DNA of 64,000 nt from Bacillota bacterium. GTDB lineage: Bacteria > Bacillota > Limnochordia > Darwinibacteriales > DTU012. The stretch covers positions 1 through 64,000 of the forward strand of contig DURM01000089.1 of assembly GCA_012837335.1 (NCBI GenBank), read 5' to 3'. The translations under genes and the position numbers were made by a program. The notes under the pieces are model-generated. The model saw nothing but the letters and a program-made list of their open reading frames with translations. It was not told the origin of the DNA and did no database searches. Shown one piece after another: positions 10,734 through 44,099 of the stretch (the first letter of the stretch is position 1; every line of letters starts with the position of its first letter).

Positions 10734-13187
10734 ATGTTGGTGAGTCGTAGATTAAGCCTTTTATTGGCAGTAGTAATGTTGTTTAGTTTCACGATCGGCG
10801 CCTCTGCACAGCGCACAGGCACATGGGTGGATGAGGTAATTTTTGTAGAAGAGGCTAACGTTTCAACAGCTATCTCTCGTTTGCAAGCAGGTGACATTGA
10901 CATTTGGGCAAACTCTTCATCTGACGTCACTGCTTACAATACAGTTCAGGTAGACCCTGCGCTGGATTATTACATTTCTTACGGTTCCTACACTGAAGTT
11001 ACATACAACACTGTAGGACCAGAGTTCAATGATGGTAGACTCAACCCGTTTGGCAATCGGAAGATCCGCGAAGCAACCAACTGGTTGTTTGACCGCGATT
11101 ATATTGCTCAAGAACTCTACAGCGGTTTAGCTGTACCGAAGTATACCCTGCTGAACAGCTCTTTTGTTGACTATTCTCGCGTTGTTGAGAAAGTTCGCGA
11201 ACTCGAGCTGAAATATGCATATGACTTCGAAAGAGGAAAACAAGTCATTCATGAAGAAATGCACAAGATGGGTGCCGACTTAGTGAATGGCGTTTGGCAC
11301 TACAAACAAGAACCAGTTGAACTTATCATCCTTGCCCGTAACGAAGACGAAAGATCTCGTCTTGGTGACTACATGGGTGAACAGTTCGAAAAAGTTGGTT
11401 TTAAAGTTAGAGTTGAGCACAGAAGTGGTACCGAATTATCTCCAATCTGGATGATGGGCGATCCGGCACTTGGTGAATGGCATGCTTACACCGGCGGATG
11501 GTTGTCACCGGTTGTATACCGCGACCAAGGTCATATCTTCAACCAAATGTACACTAGAAGAAGTATGACTCAGCCGAGATGGCAAGCTCTTGAGCCGATT
11601 CCAGAGCTGGATGAGATTTCCGATAAGCTCTATCGGAGAGAATTCAACACATTGGAAGAAAGAAAAGCTCTCTACGAACGCGCACTGGAATTGGCATTTG
11701 AAGATTCCCCATGTGTGTTCATCGTAGATAAGGTTTCCTTCACACCGATTCGCGCTGGTATCAGTGTTGCATCTGACTTAGCTGGTTATGTTGCTGGTAC
11801 AGATCTGTGGGCACCGACCCTGCGCCGCGGTGAAGAAATCGGCGGTACTGTAAACATCGCGCTGCCGCAAGTATTGGTTGAACCTTGGAACCCGGTTGGC
11901 GGCTCCAACTGGACCATGGACTTAATGCCGATGAGAGCTACTTTCGACCGCGGTCTCATGGTTGACCCGTTCACTGGTAACTACTGGCCGCACAGAATCG
12001 AAAGAGCAGAAGTTACTGTTAAAGAAGGACTCCCTGTTACTAAGACTCTTGACTGGGTAACTCTGGATTTCGAAGAAGAAATCGTTGTACCTGGCGATGC
12101 TTGGGCAGAGTGGGATCCTGTCGAAGGACGCTTCATCACAGTTGCTGAGAAATGGCCGGAAGGCGTAACTGCTTTACGGAAGTCCGTAATGTACTACACT
12201 GACCTTAACAAGGTTAAATGGCATGACGGCAGTGACTGGAGTATCGTTGACATTCTGCTTCCGTTCATCTTTGACGGATTTGATCGCGGAATGGAAGAAA
12301 GCCCACTGTTTGACAGATCAGCAGTATCCGGTTTAGAAACTATGCTCAAGTCCTTCCGCGGCTTGAAGATTATTTCTACCGATCCGCTTGTATATGAGTA
12401 CTACTCTGACTCCTGGTCACTGGATGCTGAGCACAACATCTCTGACCTGTTCGCTGTTCAGTATAACTATGGTAAACAGCCATGGCACACACTGGCTATC
12501 GGTATGCTGGCTGAGCTGAATGAAGAGTTAGCGTTCACAGCTACCAAGGCTAATGACCTGGAAGTTGAATGGTTAGGCTATCAAGCTGGTCCGAGTATCC
12601 GGATCCTGGCTAAGTGGTTAGATTACGCTATCGAAAACAACTGGATTCCGTATGAAGATTTCTTGAGTGATTACATCACTGAAGAAGAAATTCAAGAGCG
12701 CTATGCTAACCTCAAGGCTTGGTATCAAGATAAGCGCCACTTCTGGGTTGGCGATGGTCCGATGATGCTCGAGCGGGCATTCCCAACAGAAAAAATGGTT
12801 CACTTAGTACGCTTTGAAGACTACTCCGAACCAGTTGGTAAGTGGTCCATGTTCGAAGAGCCAGCTATCGCTGAAATTGAAGTAAGCGGTCCGGCACGTG
12901 TATCTGCTGGTCAAGTAGCTACAATTAACGTTGACATTACCTTCAAGGGTGAAGCTTATCGCGCTGAAGACCTGCAGCAAGTCAAATACTTAGTATTAGA
13001 CTCTTCCGGCAAGGTTGCATTCAGCGGCGAAGGCGACATCGTTGCTGACGGTAAAGCAGTAATCACCCTCACCGGTGACGAAACTGCTCAACTGCCAGTT
13101 GGCTCCAACACCGTTGAAGTAATCGTTATGCCTAAACTGGTTGGCGGCGCAAGTCTGGATCAGCATACATTTGTAACCCTGCCGTAA
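10734..13187 (+). CDS. Family 5 extracellular solute-binding protein, apparently permuted, with C-terminal Ig-like domain
   Basis: 817-aa secreted receptor of a peptide/oligosaccharide ABC importer, with a signal peptide ending near ASA-QRT (about residue 24). The usual SBP_bac_5 motifs are all present but in rearranged order. The pattern normally in the second half (ALxxGEID, then VRxAxxxAxDR) appears first, as LQAGDIDIW (about 50) and KIREATNWLFDRDY (about 108). The normal beginning (GTVNIALPQ, about 371), the VKWHDG motif (about 494) and the GDGPMML/FEDY motif (about 671) come later. Residues from about 712 form a beta-rich Ig-like tail. Long archaeal/Thermotoga cellobiose- or peptide-type receptors may be relatives; the ligand is unknown. 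Confidence 0.88.
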   Translation: MLVSRRLSLLLAVVMLFSFTIGASAQRTGTWVDEVIFVEEANVSTAISRLQAGDIDIWANSSSDVTAYNTVQVDPALDYYISYGSYTEVTYNTVGPEFNDGRLNPFGNRKIREATNWLFDRDYIAQELYSGLAVPKYTLLNSSFVDYSRVVEKVRELELKYAYDFERGKQVIHEEMHKMGADLVNGVWHYKQEPVELIILARNEDERSRLGDYMGEQFEKVGFKVRVEHRSGTELSPIWMMGDPALGEWHAYTGGWLSPVVYRDQGHIFNQMYTRRSMTQPRWQALEPIPELDEISDKLYRREFNTLEERKALYERALELAFEDSPCVFIVDKVSFTPIRAGISVASDLAGYVAGTDLWAPTLRRGEEIGGTVNIALPQVLVEPWNPVGGSNWTMDLMPMRATFDRGLMVDPFTGNYWPHRIERAEVTVKEGLPVTKTLDWVTLDFEEEIVVPGDAWAEWDPVEGRFITVAEKWPEGVTALRKSVMYYTDLNKVKWHDGSDWSIVDILLPFIFDGFDRGMEESPLFDRSAVSGLETMLKSFRGLKIISTDPLVYEYYSDSWSLDAEHNISDLFAVQYNYGKQPWHTLAIGMLAELNEELAFTATKANDLEVEWLGYQAGPSIRILAKWLDYAIENNWIPYEDFLSDYITEEEIQERYANLKAWYQDKRHFWVGDGPMMLERAFPTEKMVHLVRFEDYSEPVGKWSMFEEPAIAEIEVSGPARVSAGQVATINVDITFKGEAYRAEDLQQVKYLVLDSSGKVAFSGEGDIVADGKAVITLTGDETAQLPVGSNTVEVIVMPKLVGGASLDQHTFVTLP

Positions 13188-13251: not shown

Positions 13252-13288
13252 AATGATTTATTGAACGCTAGGATTGGGAGGTTTAGTT

Positions 13289-14425
13289 ATGCTTAATATG
13301 GCTGTTGAGAAAGCACAAACAGCCGCCGGCCGTTCGTCGGAACGGATGCGAAACCTCAGCAGATTACTGCGGTACATTCTTGTCCGCGGTATTGTGCTGT
13401 TAATCACTGTTACAATTGGAATCTATCTTACGATTATTATTGCTAACGGTGGCGGCTATGTAGACGATATGCGCAAAGCACAGATTAAAGAATCTGTTTC
13501 GATGCAGATGCAGGGAAACGAAGCGATGCGAGACATGAGTAAAGCGGAGCGCGATGCCTTTTATGAAAGGGAAGTAGCGCTTGAGATTGAGAAGCTGGGA
13601 TTGGATAGACCTTTCTGGCAGAGAGCCCATGAGTATTTATGGAATGGTATGACATTGAACTTTGGACGGGCGGATTATCTGCTAAGTGACTCCGGCTCAT
13701 CTGAAGTGCGCAATATTCTTGGAGAAAGATTGTTCCCAACACTGCTGTTGATGGCTTCGGGACAGCTACTGCTGTTCTTTGTCAGCATTACTTTTGCTTT
13801 GTTTTTATCTCGGCGGTATGGAAGTCCCCTTGATAAGCTTGTTGTCGCTATGGCACCGATGTCAGCAGCACCGGCATGGTTCTTTGGTATCTTTTTGATA
13901 TTAATATTTGCAGCATTTCTGGGTTGGCTGCCTTTCGGCGGACTGGTATCAGCTCCACCACCGAAAGAACCACTGGCTTATGCTTTAAGTGTGCTCAAAC
14001 ACTTGATTCTGCCAGTATCAGCAATTGTTGTCAGCTCAGTGTTTTTGACATCATACCATTGGCGTACATTTTTCCTGATTTACTCTAGTGAAGACTATGT
14101 AGATATGGCAAAAGCAAAAGGATTGTCATCTTCACAGATCGAACGCCGTTATGTACTGCGTCCAACACTGCCAACTATTATTACGAGCTTTGCTCTGACA
14201 TTAATTAGTTTGTGGACTGGTGCTATTGTATTAGAGACTGTCTTTAATTGGCCTGGTATTGGACGGTTGACCCAAGAAGCAATTAATATGTTTGATACAC
14301 CGGTTTTAGTGGCGGTTACTGTTCTTTATGCTTATTTATTAGCCATTACCGTGTTTCTTTTAGATATCATCTATGCCATAGTTGACCCAAGAGTTAAGCT
14401 AGGAGCGGAGGGGAATAGATCATGA
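13289..14425 (+). CDS. Peptide/oligosaccharide ABC permease, DppB-like
   Basis: 378-aa membrane protein of the BPD_transp_1 family. After TM1 (about 34-54) comes a charged extracytoplasmic region rich in Met, Lys and Glu, somewhat longer than in DppB, ending in LGLDRPFW. Further transmembrane helices follow, with the coupling loop DYVDMAKAKGLSSSQI and the typical end LETVFNWPGIGRLTQEAI and DPRVKLG. I chose ATG 13289, preceded by GGGAGG; a TTG five codons earlier is less likely. It overlaps the second permease by 4 nt. Confidence 0.9.
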   Translation: MLNMAVEKAQTAAGRSSERMRNLSRLLRYILVRGIVLLITVTIGIYLTIIIANGGGYVDDMRKAQIKESVSMQMQGNEAMRDMSKAERDAFYEREVALEIEKLGLDRPFWQRAHEYLWNGMTLNFGRADYLLSDSGSSEVRNILGERLFPTLLLMASGQLLLFFVSITFALFLSRRYGSPLDKLVVAMAPMSAAPAWFFGIFLILIFAAFLGWLPFGGLVSAPPPKEPLAYALSVLKHLILPVSAIVVSSVFLTSYHWRTFFLIYSSEDYVDMAKAKGLSSSQIERRYVLRPTLPTIITSFALTLISLWTGAIVLETVFNWPGIGRLTQEAINMFDTPVLVAVTVLYAYLLAITVFLLDIIYAIVDPRVKLGAEGNRS

Positions 14426-15765
14426 GTGGGTTGAGGAATGCATTTAATGAAATCAGACGCTATCCTTCTGCTGTTGCTGGTCTGGTCATTATCGCATTGC
14501 TGTTTGTTTTCGCGGCGTATGCCCTCATTAAGATTCCGCCTGCAGAAGCCATTAGGCTTTGGAAAGGCGAGGGTCAAATTTGGCGGCAGGTGCCTCGCAA
14601 CGCTAAACCTGCTTGGTTAAACTATTTTTACAAAGAAAAACAGCCTTTAACCACTAAGGTAAGCAGTATAGATAATCCGGAACTTAAGACCGCTGTTGAT
14701 TTAGGCAGCGGCATTGCAACGCAGGATTTTGTGTTCGAATTTGATTATCAGTACGATGGTTTTCCATCAGAGATTAGTCTTTTCTTCATTTCGAAGTTTA
14801 CCTCGGCAAGACCATACGCGACTGTTAAGTGGGTTACACCTGACGGTCGTGAGATTAAGCTCGCTGACTTGACGGTCAGTTCTGCTGATAACGCTTATGT
14901 AATCAGCCAGGACAGTAATGTTACTAGAGCTCTTGGCGGCGTAAGACCTGACAGAGGTTTATTTGCTGATCCAAATGATCCCAGTAAGGTATTAAAAGGG
15001 ACATACCAGCTGGTTGTCGAAGGATTAGTCTTCGAAGAGAACTCGACAATGGAGGCCGAACTGGTTGTTTACGGTAAACTCCATGGCCTCGCTGGAACTG
15101 ACCACCGCCGCAGGGATATTATGGTTGCGCTGATGTGGGGTGCACCTGTTGCCCTGTCCTTTGGTCTGTTAGCAGCTGTAGGTTCATCTCTGGCAACTAT
15201 GATGTTGGCGGCTTTTGGTGTATGGTTTGGCGGTCTGATTGACAGTTTGATCCGCAGGATCAACGAGATCGTTATGATCTTGCCGCTTCTGCCGATCTTG
15301 ATTATGGTGGGAATGTTTTATTCCCGAAGTATTTGGACGATGCTGGGTGTAACAATTCTGCTGGGAATCTTCGGTTCGTCGATCCTGTCGTACCGCTCAA
15401 TGTTCCTGCAGGTTAAGGCGTCCGGGTATATTGATGCAGCCCGCGCCTATGGGGCCAGCAACTTCAGGATCATTTTCCGGTATTTGATTCCGAAAGTAAT
15501 TCCGGTTCTGATTCCCGGATTTGTAACCCAAATTCCGTCCTTTGTATTCTTGGAAGCGACATTGGCAGTATTAGGCCTTGGTGATCCTCACCTGCCGACA
15601 TGGGGTAAACTGCTCAACGACGCATATTCTGAAGGAGCACTGTTTACAGGACACTACTATTGGGTATTAGAACCAGCCGTGCTGCTTGTCATCACAGGGT
15701 TAGGATTCGCAATGGTTGGCTTTGCGCTTGACCGGATCTTTAACCCACGGCTGAGGGGGTTATAA
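14422..15765 (+). CDS. Peptide/oligosaccharide ABC permease, DppC-like, with large extracytoplasmic insert
   Basis: 447-aa partner permease, against about 280-300 aa for DppC. The N-terminal helix (about 18-38) is followed by about 180 residues of soluble, beta-strand-rich sequence before the normal DppC core begins at TDHRRRDIMVALMWGA. The core contains YIDAARAYGASNFRIIFRYL (coupling loop) and LGLGDPHLPTWGKLL. The insert lies outside the membrane and may contact the unusual receptor; that is inference. ATG 14422 overlaps the previous stop (ATGA). Confidence 0.9.
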   Translation: MSGLRNAFNEIRRYPSAVAGLVIIALLFVFAAYALIKIPPAEAIRLWKGEGQIWRQVPRNAKPAWLNYFYKEKQPLTTKVSSIDNPELKTAVDLGSGIATQDFVFEFDYQYDGFPSEISLFFISKFTSARPYATVKWVTPDGREIKLADLTVSSADNAYVISQDSNVTRALGGVRPDRGLFADPNDPSKVLKGTYQLVVEGLVFEENSTMEAELVVYGKLHGLAGTDHRRRDIMVALMWGAPVALSFGLLAAVGSSLATMMLAAFGVWFGGLIDSLIRRINEIVMILPLLPILIMVGMFYSRSIWTMLGVTILLGIFGSSILSYRSMFLQVKASGYIDAARAYGASNFRIIFRYLIPKVIPVLIPGFVTQIPSFVFLEATLAVLGLGDPHLPTWGKLLNDAYSEGALFTGHYYWVLEPAVLLVITGLGFAMVGFALDRIFNPRLRGL

Positions 15766-15767
15766 TT

Positions 15768-16754
15768 ATGAGTAGGATTCTTTTAGAAGTAAATAATCTA
15801 AAGCTGTATTTCAAAACTACAAAAGGCCCCGTGCAAGCTGTAGATAATGTGAGTTTTACCCTAGAAGAAGGTAAAACATTAGCAATAGTTGGGGAGTCTG
15901 GCTGCGGCAAGACTTCCCTTAACAAGGCGATTTTACGCCTGCTGCCCCGCAATATTTTAGAATACAGCGGGGAGATTATCTTTGAAGGTGTCGATCTGAT
16001 GAAGTACAGCGATGAGCAGTTCCGCAAGGAGATTCGCTGGAAGCAGATCGCTATGGTACCGCAGGCAGCGATGAACTCGCTGAATCCAGTTATGCGGATC
16101 GAGGATCAGATTACTGAACCTCTCTTTATCCATGAACGGGGTATGACTAAAGAAGATGCTATAAAAAGAGCCGCTGAGGTATTTCAAGTTGTTGGATTGC
16201 CTCTCGACTTCATGAAACGCTATCCATTTGAGCTCAGTGGTGGAATGAGACAGAGGGCTACCATTGCCATGGCATTGGTCACCAATCCAAAGCTGGTGCT
16301 CTTGGATGAGCCTTCATCCGCATTAGACTTGCTGACACAGGCAAACTTGATGAACGTATTAAAGAAAATTAAGCATGAATTTGGCACAACATTTATCCTA
16401 ATTACACATGATATCGGTACCGCCAGTGAACTAGCTGATGAGGTTGCTGTAATGTACGCTGGTGAAATGGTAGAAAAATGTCACGCTGAGTATTTCTACA
16501 CTGAAGCGAGACATCCATACTCACGCAAACTCATGAGCAGTGTACCCACACTGCGTGAAGATAAAGAACTTGTGTTTATCCCTGGGCAGCCGCCTTCATT
16601 GATTAACCCCCCTAAGGGATGCAGATTTTATGACCGCTGCGACCAGCGCTTCGAAAAATGCTTACAGCACCCTGATAGCATTGAGCTGGAGCATGGTCAG
16701 CAGGTTAAATGTTGGCTGTATTCAGATGGGATCGAGGTGAAGAAGAATGCCTAA
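15768..16754 (+). CDS. Peptide/oligosaccharide ABC ATPase, DppD/OppD-like
   Basis: 328-aa ATPase. Walker A GESGCGKTS (about 44), signature LSGGMRQRATIAMAL (about 153), Walker B LVLLDEPSSALD and switch THD are intact. The C-terminal oligopeptide-transporter extension, with its Cys-containing motif GCRFYDRC.....KC, usually carries an Fe-S or metal site. It pairs with the next ATPase, which it overlaps by 8 nt, to power the importer. Confidence 0.93.
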   Translation: MSRILLEVNNLKLYFKTTKGPVQAVDNVSFTLEEGKTLAIVGESGCGKTSLNKAILRLLPRNILEYSGEIIFEGVDLMKYSDEQFRKEIRWKQIAMVPQAAMNSLNPVMRIEDQITEPLFIHERGMTKEDAIKRAAEVFQVVGLPLDFMKRYPFELSGGMRQRATIAMALVTNPKLVLLDEPSSALDLLTQANLMNVLKKIKHEFGTTFILITHDIGTASELADEVAVMYAGEMVEKCHAEYFYTEARHPYSRKLMSSVPTLREDKELVFIPGQPPSLINPPKGCRFYDRCDQRFEKCLQHPDSIELEHGQQVKCWLYSDGIEVKKNA

Positions 16755-17772
16755 TCTGGCTGTGAAATCTCAGCAGAGCCCTCAGAAAAAAATGCCGATT
16801 CTTAAGGTGGAGAATCTGCACACCTGGTTTGAGATCAGACGACTTGGTTTTTTCAAAGCAGGTGATGTGCGAGCTTTAGACGGAGTCAGCTTCGAGCTGT
16901 ATCAAGGCGAAACAGTTTCGATTGTTGGAGAGAGTGGCTGTGGAAAAAGTACACTGGCCAAAACAATTTTGGGTTTGAACCAACCGACTAAAGGTAAGAT
17001 GTACTTTGACGGCAAGGATATGAGCGAGTTTACGAAAGAGGATATTAAGAAATATCACTCTGACGTTGGCTATGTTCAGCAGGATCCTTATGGTGCACTG
17101 CCGCCGTTTATGACCGTTCGCAGAATTCTCGAAGAACCGATGCTGATTAACGGCATTACTGATAAAGCTGAACGAGAAGCGCGGATTAAAGAAGTGCTGG
17201 AAGAGGTAAAGTTAGCTCCGATTGAGGACTTTTTACCGAAGTTTCCACATATGCTCAGTGGAGGACAGCAGCAGAGATTGGTTATTGCTAGAGCGATGAT
17301 TCTCCATCCAAGAATGCTGATCGCAGACGAACCTGTGTCCATGCTTGACGCATCGGTTCGGGTTGAGATTCTGCAGCTGCTGCGCGGCCTGCAGAAAAAA
17401 CACAACCTGGCAATTATCTATATTACCCACGACTTATCGACTGTAAGATATTTCTCAGAACGTATATTTACTATGTATGGAGCAAAAATTATAGAAAAGT
17501 CTTCTACTGATAAATTGCTGGAAAACCCACTGCATCCTTATACCCAGGCTTTATTTAAAGCCACATCGGATCCGGATGCAGAGAACTTGAAGTCTTTCAA
17601 AGAGGTACCGACAGGTGAGCCTCCAAGTCTGATGAACCCACCGAAAGGATGCCGCTTCCATCCTCGCTGTTCAAAGATGATCAAAGGCAAATGCGATCAG
17701 TTTGAACCGCCTGAAATCAAAGTCAACGGGGAGCAGATGGTTGCCTGTTGGCTGTATGAAAAGAATAAGTAA
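16747..17772 (+). CDS. Peptide/oligosaccharide ABC ATPase, DppF/OppF-like
   Basis: 341-aa second ATPase of the importer. Walker A GESGCGKST (about 60), the QQDPYGALPP Q-loop region, signature LSGGQQQRLVIARAM, Walker B LIADEPVSMLD and THD are present. The C-terminal extension GCRFHPRC......KC matches the OppD/F tail. The ATG at 16747 lies inside the end of the preceding gene after GAGGTGAAG, indicating coupled translation. A small membrane-protein gene follows 3 nt later. Confidence 0.93.
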   Translation: MPNLAVKSQQSPQKKMPILKVENLHTWFEIRRLGFFKAGDVRALDGVSFELYQGETVSIVGESGCGKSTLAKTILGLNQPTKGKMYFDGKDMSEFTKEDIKKYHSDVGYVQQDPYGALPPFMTVRRILEEPMLINGITDKAEREARIKEVLEEVKLAPIEDFLPKFPHMLSGGQQQRLVIARAMILHPRMLIADEPVSMLDASVRVEILQLLRGLQKKHNLAIIYITHDLSTVRYFSERIFTMYGAKIIEKSSTDKLLENPLHPYTQALFKATSDPDAENLKSFKEVPTGEPPSLMNPPKGCRFHPRCSKMIKGKCDQFEPPEIKVNGEQMVACWLYEKNK

Positions 17773-36643: not shown

Positions 36644-38644
36644 ATGTCAAAGCAAATTACGATCAAGCAGGCGGCTGAGATTCTCGGTGTCAGCCCTGCT
36701 ACTGTTCGCAATTGGATTAGATTAGGTAAAATCAAGCAAGTCACACGTTCTGGAAGGGTGTACGAGCTGGCATCGGCTGAGATCAATCAGCTCAAACAAG
36801 CGATTAACACCGGCAGCCTGCCATATTTAAAGAGCCGCAGGAACAAACAAGCGATAACGGGACGGGCGGTGCCGGCCAACTATCTGGAGAATAAGGCTCT
36901 TGTTGATTTTGGAGAAAGTTTGATGCCGCTGATCCGCAAACTCTCCAAGCAGGGGCAGCTGCTGGTGCTTTTGGAGCTTTATCTCAAGCTTTTGCAGATG
37001 AACGGCAGAATTTCACCTAATAAAACAAACCTAGTGCTGACCGAAGAGTGGCTTGCAGGTCGGATTGAGATGGGACTCTATGGCGGTTTTGCTAAAGAGT
37101 TTTGGGAGTTATGTGCTCCCAGCTCTCGGAATGATCTGCAGCTGTTGAGGGAAATAAACAGCGGTTATCTGCAGGCTGTTTCCGGTGACGACCTGCTTGG
37201 ATTGGTGTATATGGCAATCTGTTCACTGCGGAAGCGAAAAAATACTGGCAGCTACTACACGCCAAGTGCGGTCGTAAAGCAGCTGATCGCATCCAGTTTT
37301 CACTACATCGACCCGCTGGTGCTGGGTTCTGCTGTAGATCCCTGCTGTGGTTCAGGGAACTTTTTGCTCCATTTGTTTCAATTTTTGAAGCCCCGGATTG
37401 TGAAAACAGGACTGGCGGAGTATGAGGCAGAGCTGAGGTTAGCGGGCATGCTGATTGGTTTTGATAACGATCCGATCGCAGTTATTCTTACCAAAATGAA
37501 TCTGTCACTGCTGTTTGCCCATCCTGAACTGGCAGCGCAGGTGCGCATCGAGCAGCGGGATACCCTGCTGGAACCGAATCAGAACCAGTACGACTTAGTA
37601 ATCGGCAATCCGCCCTGGGGATACAGGTTTACTCAAGCGGAGCTGCAGAAGCTGTCAGGAAGGGGGTATCAAACAATCCAAGCTGGCGGCAGAGCAGAAT
37701 CGTTCTGCCTGTTCATCGAATGGGCGGTTGAGCGTGTGCGGACCGGAGGTTTAATCAGCTATGTCATCCCGGAGGCATTTTTGACCACCCATTTTCATCA
37801 TTCCGCTCGAGAGCTGATCTTAAAATCATGCCAGATCAGGGAGACCGCTCAACTTGGAATGGCATTTGCACAGGTTAATGCGCCCGTAATCACCTTGATA
37901 GCAGAAAAAACAAACCGCCAAAGGGATTTATCTGAGCTAAGCGATCTCAACCTAAGTTGTTTTGTGTACGGTAAGCAGCGTGACCGTTCCATTATTGAAC
38001 ACCTCCGCACCAGACCCAACATTACTTACCTTAAAGATAAAGCAGATTTCGCATTGGGAATTGTCACCGGGAATAATCGGAGGTTTTTGCTCACTTCTCC
38101 GGTCGATAACAGTGAACCAGTGATTTCCGGCCGTGATCTGCTTCACTACAATATTAAAGAATGCTCATATCACCTTGTTTATCAGCGCGAGCTTTTCCAG
38201 CAGGTTGCTCCGGAAGAATACTACCGAGCGCCGGAGAAGCTGCTCTATCGTTTTGTTCATCAGCGTTTAGTTGTGGCTTACGATAACCATCAGCGTTTAA
38301 GCATCAACAGCGCCAACATATTGATTCCAAAACTTACAGGCGTTTCCGTAAAATATGTGATGGCTGTACTGAATTCGAGAGTTGTCCAGTTTTATCGAAC
38401 GATCACCAATCCGGATGTGAAAGTGCTCCGCAGTTTTTTGGAATCAATACCGATTGCGCTCTGTTCTGAATCCGAGCAAAAAGAGGTTATCGGCTTGGTT
38501 GATCAGATTTTGATGTCGAAAAACCCTGGTCAGCGCCGCAGAATTTACGAGGAAATTGATCAAAAACTGATGGATTTATATGGCTTGTCTTTTCAGGATC
38601 AAATTTATATTCGCCGAAAAAGTCAGACAGTTGACTTATTGTAA
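36644..38644 (+). CDS. HTH-fused N6-adenine DNA methyltransferase (orphan, type IIG/TaqI-like)
   Basis: 666-aa protein. Residues 1-55 form a MerR/excisionase-type helix-turn-helix (TIKQAAEILGVSPATVRNWI). A helical region follows, then the SAM-binding motif I VDPCCGSGNF (about 230), an acidic FDNDP loop and catalytic motif IV NPPWGY (about 324), and a C-terminal TaqI-like target-recognition region. No nuclease motif (PD-ExK) was seen and no restriction gene lies beside it. It may be a regulatory or protective methylase, or a degenerate type IIG enzyme. ATG 36644 follows GCGGAGGA. Confidence 0.82.
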   Translation: MSKQITIKQAAEILGVSPATVRNWIRLGKIKQVTRSGRVYELASAEINQLKQAINTGSLPYLKSRRNKQAITGRAVPANYLENKALVDFGESLMPLIRKLSKQGQLLVLLELYLKLLQMNGRISPNKTNLVLTEEWLAGRIEMGLYGGFAKEFWELCAPSSRNDLQLLREINSGYLQAVSGDDLLGLVYMAICSLRKRKNTGSYYTPSAVVKQLIASSFHYIDPLVLGSAVDPCCGSGNFLLHLFQFLKPRIVKTGLAEYEAELRLAGMLIGFDNDPIAVILTKMNLSLLFAHPELAAQVRIEQRDTLLEPNQNQYDLVIGNPPWGYRFTQAELQKLSGRGYQTIQAGGRAESFCLFIEWAVERVRTGGLISYVIPEAFLTTHFHHSARELILKSCQIRETAQLGMAFAQVNAPVITLIAEKTNRQRDLSELSDLNLSCFVYGKQRDRSIIEHLRTRPNITYLKDKADFALGIVTGNNRRFLLTSPVDNSEPVISGRDLLHYNIKECSYHLVYQRELFQQVAPEEYYRAPEKLLYRFVHQRLVVAYDNHQRLSINSANILIPKLTGVSVKYVMAVLNSRVVQFYRTITNPDVKVLRSFLESIPIALCSESEQKEVIGLVDQILMSKNPGQRRRIYEEIDQKLMDLYGLSFQDQIYIRRKSQTVDLL

Positions 38645-42092: not shown

Positions 42093-43973
42093 ATGGAAAA
42101 TCTGATGTTAACTAAGTTTGAGTTACCTGAGGATGTTTTCAAAACCATAAACCATGAAAATGTCTTTGTGCCTGAAACTCGGGAACAGTTAGTTAAGCTT
42201 GCCATTGGCGGTCAGCAGAGTGGCTTTTTTGAAGTCGCTTATCAAGTTCCTGAGCAAGGCAGAGTTTTGGAAGCAACTGTAACCAAGTGCAAAAATGGAG
42301 TTGCGGTTAACTTTGTGGAGCCGTATATGCGTCGGCGTGATCCCGACTGCATGGTGATTGGAGATAAGAAACCGACTGATAAAGTAACTTTTGATCAGCG
42401 GTTTGGAGAAGAATTTGATCCCCTGAGACAGCAGACGCTTGATTGGCTTAGCAATCAGAGTTTAATTGTCATGCCATTTTATGCCGGAGGAAAAGAATAT
42501 GGATATCCGGCACTGCTGATTTCACCGCGTAACGCAGCATTTTTCGCAGCTGCCTTAGCTGATATGCAGGAGTTTATTCCAAGAGATGAGATTCCTGAAA
42601 ACTTCAAGCCGCGGGGAATAGTTTATGTGGCTCCGCCATTTCGGCATACCCACTTTGATGGAAAGCAGATCGTGGTTCACAACCGTACAGATGAGGTCCA
42701 CGAAGTGTTTTCGTACAATCTCTATCCTGGACCGAGCGCCAAAAAAGGCGTCTACGCTATGCTGCTGGATTTGGGAGAAGATGATGGCTGGGTAACACTG
42801 CATGCTTCAACGGTCAAGATTATTACTCCCTATGAGAACGTACTTACCATTATGCATGAAGGAGCAAGCGGCAGCGGAAAGAGCGAGATGATTGAGCAGA
42901 TTCACCGCCAGGAAGATGGTACTGTTAAATTCGGTGAGAACGTAACCACCGGAGAAGAGATTATCATCAGCTTGCGCGAATCCAGCGAACTGCTGCCAAT
43001 TACTGATGATATGGCGCTGTGCCCTAGAGGTCTGCAGGAAGACGATGGCAAGTTAGTTGTTAAAGATGCCGAAGCCGGATGGTTTTTGCGGATCGACCAT
43101 ATCGCGCAGTACGGCACGGAGCCGTATTATGAGAAAATTACAATCCATCCCAAAGAACCGCTGATTTTTATGAACTTAGACGGAAAACCTGGCGCCACCT
43201 GCTTGATTTGGGAGCATATCGAAGACGCTCCTGGACAGCCTTGCCCGAACCCCAGGGTGATTGTGCCGCGCAGCCATATTTCCGGGGCTATCACTGAACC
43301 GGCTGCAGTTGATATCCGCAGTTTCGGTGTCAGAACTCCGCTCACCACCAAGGATAATCCTTCCTATGGGATTATTGGCCTGTTTCATGTACTGCCGCCG
43401 AGTTTGGCCTGGCTGTGGCGGTTAGTGTCCCCGCGGGGGGCGAACAACCCCAGCATTAATGATGTCGGCGGAGGCATGAAAAGTGAAGGAGTTGGCTCGT
43501 ACTGGCCTTTTGTAACCGGCAGAATGGTAGATCAGGCTAATCTGCTGTTAGAGCAGTTTAGGAAAGCGTATAGAACCCGCTATATCCTGATTCCGAATCA
43601 GCATATCGGAGCATACGAGGTAGGCTTTATGCCGCAGTGGATTACCAGAGAGTATCTAGCTAGGAGAGGAAGTGCTAGTTTCGGTAAAGATCGACTGGTC
43701 GAATCTCGCTGTCCGCTGCTGGGATATGCGATGCAGTCTGTCAAGGTAGATGGAAACCAGGTTAAGAAAGATCTGCTCCAGGTGCAGTATCAGCCTGAGG
43801 TCGGTTTTGGTGCTTACGATCAAGGCGCGGCAATTCTCACCTCATTCTTTAAGCGCGAGCTGGAGAAATACTTGGTTGACGACCTCCATCCTCTCGGCAG
43901 AAAGATTATCGAATGCTGCCTAGATGACGGCAAGGTAAGCGATTATCTCGAGTTTCTGCCGATGAGCTACTAG
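42093..43973 (+). CDS. DUF4914 family protein with P-loop (PEPCK/HprK-like kinase fold suspected)
   Basis: 626-aa cytoplasmic protein of unknown function. The central P-loop HEGASGSGKSEMIEQI (about 254-269) resembles those of ATP-dependent PEP carboxykinase and HPr kinase. Further recognisable elements are MPFYAGGKEYGYPALL, the His-rich PPFRHTHFDG, ITDDMALCPRG and SPRGANNPSINDVGGG. No signal peptide or membrane helix is present. DUF4914 proteins occur in anaerobic Bacillota and other anaerobes; the reaction is not known to me. ATG 42093 follows AAAGGGAG. It stands alone between a leader hairpin and the tRNA gene. Confidence 0.75.
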   Translation: MENLMLTKFELPEDVFKTINHENVFVPETREQLVKLAIGGQQSGFFEVAYQVPEQGRVLEATVTKCKNGVAVNFVEPYMRRRDPDCMVIGDKKPTDKVTFDQRFGEEFDPLRQQTLDWLSNQSLIVMPFYAGGKEYGYPALLISPRNAAFFAAALADMQEFIPRDEIPENFKPRGIVYVAPPFRHTHFDGKQIVVHNRTDEVHEVFSYNLYPGPSAKKGVYAMLLDLGEDDGWVTLHASTVKIITPYENVLTIMHEGASGSGKSEMIEQIHRQEDGTVKFGENVTTGEEIIISLRESSELLPITDDMALCPRGLQEDDGKLVVKDAEAGWFLRIDHIAQYGTEPYYEKITIHPKEPLIFMNLDGKPGATCLIWEHIEDAPGQPCPNPRVIVPRSHISGAITEPAAVDIRSFGVRTPLTTKDNPSYGIIGLFHVLPPSLAWLWRLVSPRGANNPSINDVGGGMKSEGVGSYWPFVTGRMVDQANLLLEQFRKAYRTRYILIPNQHIGAYEVGFMPQWITREYLARRGSASFGKDRLVESRCPLLGYAMQSVKVDGNQVKKDLLQVQYQPEVGFGAYDQGAAILTSFFKRELEKYLVDDLHPLGRKIIECCLDDGKVSDYLEFLPMSY

Positions 43974-44023: not shown

Positions 44024-44099
44024 GGCCCCGTAGCTCAGGGGATAGAGCAGCGGTTTCCTAAACCGCGTGCCGCAGGTTCGATTCCTGCCGGGGCCGCCA
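44024..44099 (+). tRNA. tRNA-Arg (anticodon CCT)
   Basis: A complete 76-nt cloverleaf with encoded CCA. The acceptor stem GGCCCCG/CGGGGCC has U8-A9, a D-stem GCTC/GAGC, anticodon stem GCGGT/ACCGC with loop TTCCTAA, and T-stem GCAGG/CCTGC with loop TTCGATT. Anticodon CCT reads AGG. Confidence 0.96.

Follow-up and report, generated by a model that had tools for sequence, protein, structure and literature searches.

Family-5 receptors are among the commonest import receptors of bacteria. The stretch of DNA that we analysed (64,000 nucleotides of contig DURM01000089.1 from a Bacillota bacterium; hereafter the window) carries one such gene in which the familiar motifs stand in an unusual order, and the question it raises is whether the two halves of an ordinary solute-binding protein (SBP) have exchanged places. 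A preliminary description of the gene, made from sequence alone, had proposed a permutation joining the old N and C termini, cut exactly between the GxGPY and GEID segments, along with a new signal peptide and the gain of a beta domain. We conclude that the gene product, the receptor of an Opp/Dpp-type ABC importer, is very likely (probability about 0.94) a natural circular permutant of family 5 (cluster C), a reading reached without an experimental structure or a CE-CP superposition.

Order of the receptor halves

The receptor open reading frame (10734-13187, plus strand) is intact and encodes 817 amino acids from an ATG start codon, which is preceded on its upstream side by AAAGGGTG. Its features are as follows.

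10734..10811 (+): signal peptide, residues 1-26, with an apparent signal peptidase I site between ASA and Q (sequence; helix 2-23 in the model)
10812..11828 (+): original C-terminal half of a family-5 SBP, now first, residues 27-365 (PF00496 profile; 7fi3 chain 324-584; normal-SBP profile 227-501)
10878..10901 (+): RLQAGDID, the ALxxGEID motif, residues 49-56 (family alignment)
11064..11096 (+): IREATNWLFDR, the VRxAxxxAxDR motif, residues 111-121 (family alignment)
11799..11849 (+): join of the old C terminus to the old N terminus, residues ~356-372, LWAPTLRRGEEIGGTVN (DSSP order in the model; family alignment)
11829..12869 (+): original N-terminal half, now second, residues 366-712 (7fi3 chain 103-310; normal profile 100-134 and 195-225; separate AlphaFold2 model and Foldseek)
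12219-12233 (+): WHDGS, residues 496-500, inside the original N-half
12750-12764 (+): GDGPM, residues 673-677, inside the original N-half
12870..13184 (+): C-terminal beta-rich (Ig-like) tail, residues 713-817 (strands 714-816 in the model)

The motif order that had been described held: the GEID- and VRxA-type motifs (residues 49-56 and 111-121) come before the usual start segment, GGTVNIALP..EPWNP (370-387), WHDG (496-500), and GDGPM (673-677). Within the VRxAxxxAxDR motif, R112, A114, and R121 are invariant in a wide family alignment. Both the new signal peptide and the added beta domain are supported by the sequence and the model. No lipobox is present in the N-terminal sequence of the window receptor, and tail residues 713-817 matched no Pfam family.

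PF00496 matches the receptor at 79.2 bits against a gathering cutoff of 32.4, so that membership of the family by score is met. The match covers residues 32-257 only, corresponding to profile positions 148-347 of 368 and thus to the C-half alone. The same search returned neither a full-length linear match nor a second complete domain, the two outcomes that had been named as refuting a permutation. A split match in reversed order had been proposed as a check, and while PF00496 matched only the C-half, such a split was found with the best match of a phmmer search against the PDB, the normal-order oligopeptide receptor OppA of Thermococcus kodakarensis (TkOppA; PDB 7fi3). Here query residues 102-259 align with chain residues 401-569, and query residues 489-735 align with 100-347. 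With a 48-sequence profile the two segments were query 25-265 against chain 324-584 (i-value 1.7e-30) and query 485-692 against chain 103-310 (i-value 1.1e-13). Both halves of the receptor are therefore related to the same normal-order protein.

When the family profile was aligned by hhalign to a template profile built from 20 normal-order family-5 SBPs, query columns 3-318, 459-494, and 642-673 matched template positions 227-501, 100-134, and 195-225. These three out-of-order blocks meet at one template position, which places the cut between positions 226 and 227, that is, between the GxGPY segment and the GEID segment that normally follows it, as had been claimed. Rotation of the query profile raised the hhalign score from 181 to 215, with one alignment running across the join. 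For the single sequence, rotation raised the Pfam score from 79.2 to 87.4 bits as the match grew across the join to profile positions 108-347, and a local HMM scored over every rotation peaked over a plateau containing the predicted cut (86.8 versus 72.7 bits). A better score when permuted, also proposed as a check, was thus obtained; divergence of the N-half keeps the Pfam and local HMM gains modest.

Indeed, divergence from generic SBPs is far greater in the N-half than in the C-half. Taken alone, the N-half has zero Pfam matches, and hhalign aligns it with generic SBPs in short blocks only. Because Pfam is silent on this half, the comparison was made through TkOppA and profile-profile alignment, and the main reading carries the caveat that the kinship of the N-half to cluster C rests mainly on 7fi3.

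Two homologous segments that are exchanged and complementary, with no duplication, meet the definition of a circular permutation. The linear order of PF00496/cluster C, in which an N-half (FHDG, GxGPY) leads into a C-half (GEID, VRxA..DR), is not met but reversed. By these computations the window receptor is a permuted variant of PF00496/cluster C and not a canonical member. An arrangement of tandem complete domains was ruled out, as none (0) of the family-5 ORFs in our survey showed duplicated profile coverage.

Predicted structure

Prediction gave a confident fold for the full chain: AlphaFold2, which the preliminary description had suggested running, returned a pLDDT of 91.1 and a pTM of 0.84 for the whole chain, and 91.9 and 0.89 for the N-half modelled separately. 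Foldseek aligns in linear order only. With the whole model it covered only about half of each normal cluster C receptor (TMt 0.40-0.50, ~315 columns; TMt 0.40 and E 4e-20 against 7fi3), and the best 50 PDB structure matches were overwhelmingly cluster C receptors. The N-half alone matched 7fi3 over 340 columns (TMq 0.70, rmsd 4.0, prob 1.00). The cluster C fold is thus predicted in both parts of the receptor, again with neither an experimental structure nor a permuted superposition. Joining of the old termini is supported by PF00496, 7fi3, the hhalign rotation, and AlphaFold2 with Foldseek.

The importer operon

Four importer genes follow the receptor gene in the same operon, so the arrangement expected of cluster C, with OppB, C, D, and F alongside, is met.

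13274..14425 (+): OppB-type permease (PF00528)
14422..15765 (+): OppC-type permease with an insertion (OppC_N 5-34, BPD_transp_1 261-445)
14524-15072 (+): the OppC insertion after TM1, ~145-160 residues within about residues 35-217 (limits of OppC_N and BPD_transp_1; comparison with solved DppC/OppC)
15768..16754 (+): OppD-type ATPase (PF00005 and oligo_HPY)
16747..17772 (+): OppF-type ATPase (PF00005 and oligo_HPY)

OppC has ~445 residues versus ~300 in solved DppC/OppC, whose match starts only at OppC residue 218-224, and we therefore place an insertion of ~145-160 residues after TM1. This insertion occurs in 41 of 73 Limnochordia genomes, all 41 of which also carry the permuted SBP; no genome has the insertion only, and a single one (G001, 87% complete) has the permuted SBP without it. 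No regulatory RNA was found in the operon, and promoter and terminator scans remained at chance level.

Elsewhere in the window, a full-length DUF4914 protein (42093-43973; 1050 bits, function unknown) adjoins a tRNA gene (44024-44096), and 36644-38644 encodes a TaqI/Eco57I-like N6 DNA methylase with a MerR-type HTH at its N terminus.

Conservation and anchoring

The swapped order and its operon are conserved across phyla. Receptors of the window type, which we call type A, have colinear permuted relatives, full length or cut by contig ends, in 42 of the 73 genomes of Limnochordia, the source class, as well as elsewhere in Bacillota and in 14 of 151 Chloroflexota. In all, type A is found in Bacillota, Chloroflexota, Spirochaetota, and Bipolaricaulota/Acetothermia, with named records from Bacillota including Symbiobacterium, Anaerolineae, Caldilineaceae, Spirochaetaceae, Acetothermia, and Bipolaricaulota. 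Among its carriers are the isolate Bellilinea caldifistulae (L090) and two chromosome-level records (L104, L107), and the most distant colinear relatives (L055, L056) share ~21% identity in the family alignment. OppB lies directly 3' of the SBP in nearly all type A loci with enough sequence, followed by oppC, oppD, and oppF. Plasmid searches gave generic partial matches only, or none.

The beta tail is missing from two relatives (L052 and L053) and is therefore optional in the family. The age and wide conservation of this clade, the optional tail, and the other cut points found in other family-5 SBPs (below) had all been missed by the preliminary description.

The N terminus also varies. A plain signal peptide begins the window protein. 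In Chloroflexota, most relatives carry a lipobox together with a long linker, and two relatives from Bipolaricaulota (L120, L136) open with a TM helix. At L134 (8621-12370, plus strand), known from one MAG, a 1249-residue protein combines a Ser/Thr kinase, a TM helix, a linker, and a complete type A SBP with its tail; it resembles a receptor kinase with an SBP as sensor, and oppBCDF is absent within 10 kb. A search of 151 Chloroflexota with the kinase part found no second clear case. Since tethering differs among relatives (signal peptide, lipobox and linker, TM helix, kinase and TM), the permutation may be an adaptation to tethering, a possibility that we infer by analogy with the one suggested for MglB-2 (PMC4990184).

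Two further arrangements were observed. The source genome encodes a 449-residue lipoprotein (L016 874-2223, plus strand) in which an InlB-like repeat accompanies the C-half alone of a type A-like SBP; this stand-alone half receptor has relatives in several genomes of the source order. In Bipolaricaulota/Acetothermia (L200 3995-13991, L201 2-9974), the permuted importer operon adjoins another importer; the family-5 SBP of the latter (~880 residues) has the normal order.

Other permutations in the family

A survey of the same genomes with PF00496 identified two further family-5 permutations, types B and C, each with cut points unlike those of type A and each in its own clade. Type B (L197), present in 14 of 151 Chloroflexota, starts just before VRxA (query 30-264 aligns with 2d5w 322-560, and 394-604 with 79-311). 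Type C (L198, L199), found nearly full length in 22 of 151 Chloroflexota, begins past the FHDG helix (query 73-446 aligns with 3tpa 127-505, and 475-567 with 26-125). Placed on one normal profile, the cuts lie near 217 (A), at 260-284 (B), and at 119-138 (C), and profile coverage is duplicated little or not at all. The type B protein (L197 2-1822, plus strand; orthologues L228-L238) carries the normal N-half at its end, and the type C proteins (L198 2178-3911, plus strand; L199 2733-4475, minus strand; orthologues L207-L226) are lipoproteins ending with the normal N-terminal segment.

A tree built from the shared C-lobe places B in one clade (100/100), C in another (100/90), and A in a third with TkOppA. 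Six rows from the flanks of type A loci are other, normal-order SBPs; with these counted as such, four changes of state are needed. Normal-order TkOppA falls within the permuted type A clade, beside L055/L056 (99/90). Type A as a single clade was not rejected by the AU test (p = 0.206), and the tree was built without archaeal genomes with TkOppA relatives. It is possible that type A arose once and later reverted, or that there were several events; neither can be excluded.

Comparison with known systems

TkOppA, a cluster C/PF00496 oligopeptide receptor solved with an endogenous pentapeptide, is the best match to both halves in sequence and structure. Its halves are in normal order, whereas the window protein places the C-half first and adds the beta tail. 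Receptors of the DppA/OppA/AppA/NikA type (1dpp, 1xoc, 3m8u) belong to the same family and align with the window C-half, but they are in normal order, have ~500-550 residues, and work with an OppC partner that lacks the insertion.

A natural permutation is already known in a binding protein of another fold class. Tp0684/MglB-2 of Treponema pallidum ('Type Ic / cluster Bc'; PMC4990184) is likewise a naturally permuted, clade-conserved ABC-importer binding protein, and its relatives are mostly membrane-tethered, a likeness to type A. It differs from the window receptor in fold class, cut point, and cargo, being a Type I/cluster B sugar receptor with ~70-100 residues moved. The window receptor, with PF00496 as its sole Pfam, does not meet this cluster Bc fold criterion. 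For cluster C/family 5, we found no earlier report of permutation in the open-access literature that we searched, subscription papers being outside our scope.

Alternative explanations

The rival that survives best, itself unlikely, is that the halves were fused from two different family-5 genes by gene shuffling instead of being permuted within one; the topology is permuted either way. In its favor, the N-half is much more diverged than the C-half from generic SBPs, a half-only paralogue exists (L016), and a like origin was considered for MglB-2 (PMC4990184). Against it, TkOppA is the best solved relative of both halves, and the pieces meet without overlap. Very unlikely is a second possibility, that the permuted protein is now a surface sensor or enzyme and no longer a transport receptor, as the kinase fusion at L134, with its TM helix and no adjoining oppBCDF, could suggest; nearly all other loci directly precede oppB-C-D-F with the matching OppC insertion. 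Finally, an artefact in which a chimeric or rearranged contig of one MAG fuses halves of ordinary genes, conceivable in a 91-contig draft assembly, is all but excluded, since the whole-chain model is confident and dozens of independent assemblies from several phyla show the same order in proteins of 40-85% identity, with misassembly excluded by isolate Bellilinea and the two chromosome-level assemblies.

Function and significance

Under our preferred reading, a permuted cluster C receptor, the gene would have arisen when an ordinary SBP gene was duplicated in tandem and in frame, after which the N-half of the first copy and the C-half of the last were lost. The receptor would be exported by its new signal peptide, and its two lobes would close on a ligand. 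By kinship with TkOppA, the only basis for inferring peptide binding, this ligand is most likely an oligopeptide. It would be handed to OppBC, whose docking surface may include the extra OppC ectodomain, and import would be powered by OppDF. The permutation would relocate the N-terminal tether, a lipid linker or TM helix in relatives, on the receptor. The inferred function, for which there are no ligand data, is periplasmic or cell-surface capture of oligopeptides for delivery to OppBCDF.

We lean, with reservations, toward a bolder reading in which family-5 receptors are a natural hot spot for permutation, with at least three independent events at different cuts fixed in separate clades. Type A permutation would, in this reading, be linked to a rebuilt OppC, from which it would follow that permutation altered receptor tethering or docking. 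If TkOppA truly sits inside type A, then reversal or repeated permutation has also happened.

Permuted members are misread by profile searches as truncated or ordinary receptors. The three cut points of these conserved natural permutants reveal the loops at which the bilobed fold can accept new termini, information of use in biosensor design. The permutants are also a natural experiment on tether position and receptor-permease docking, and the docking question can be tested directly through the co-conserved OppC insertion.
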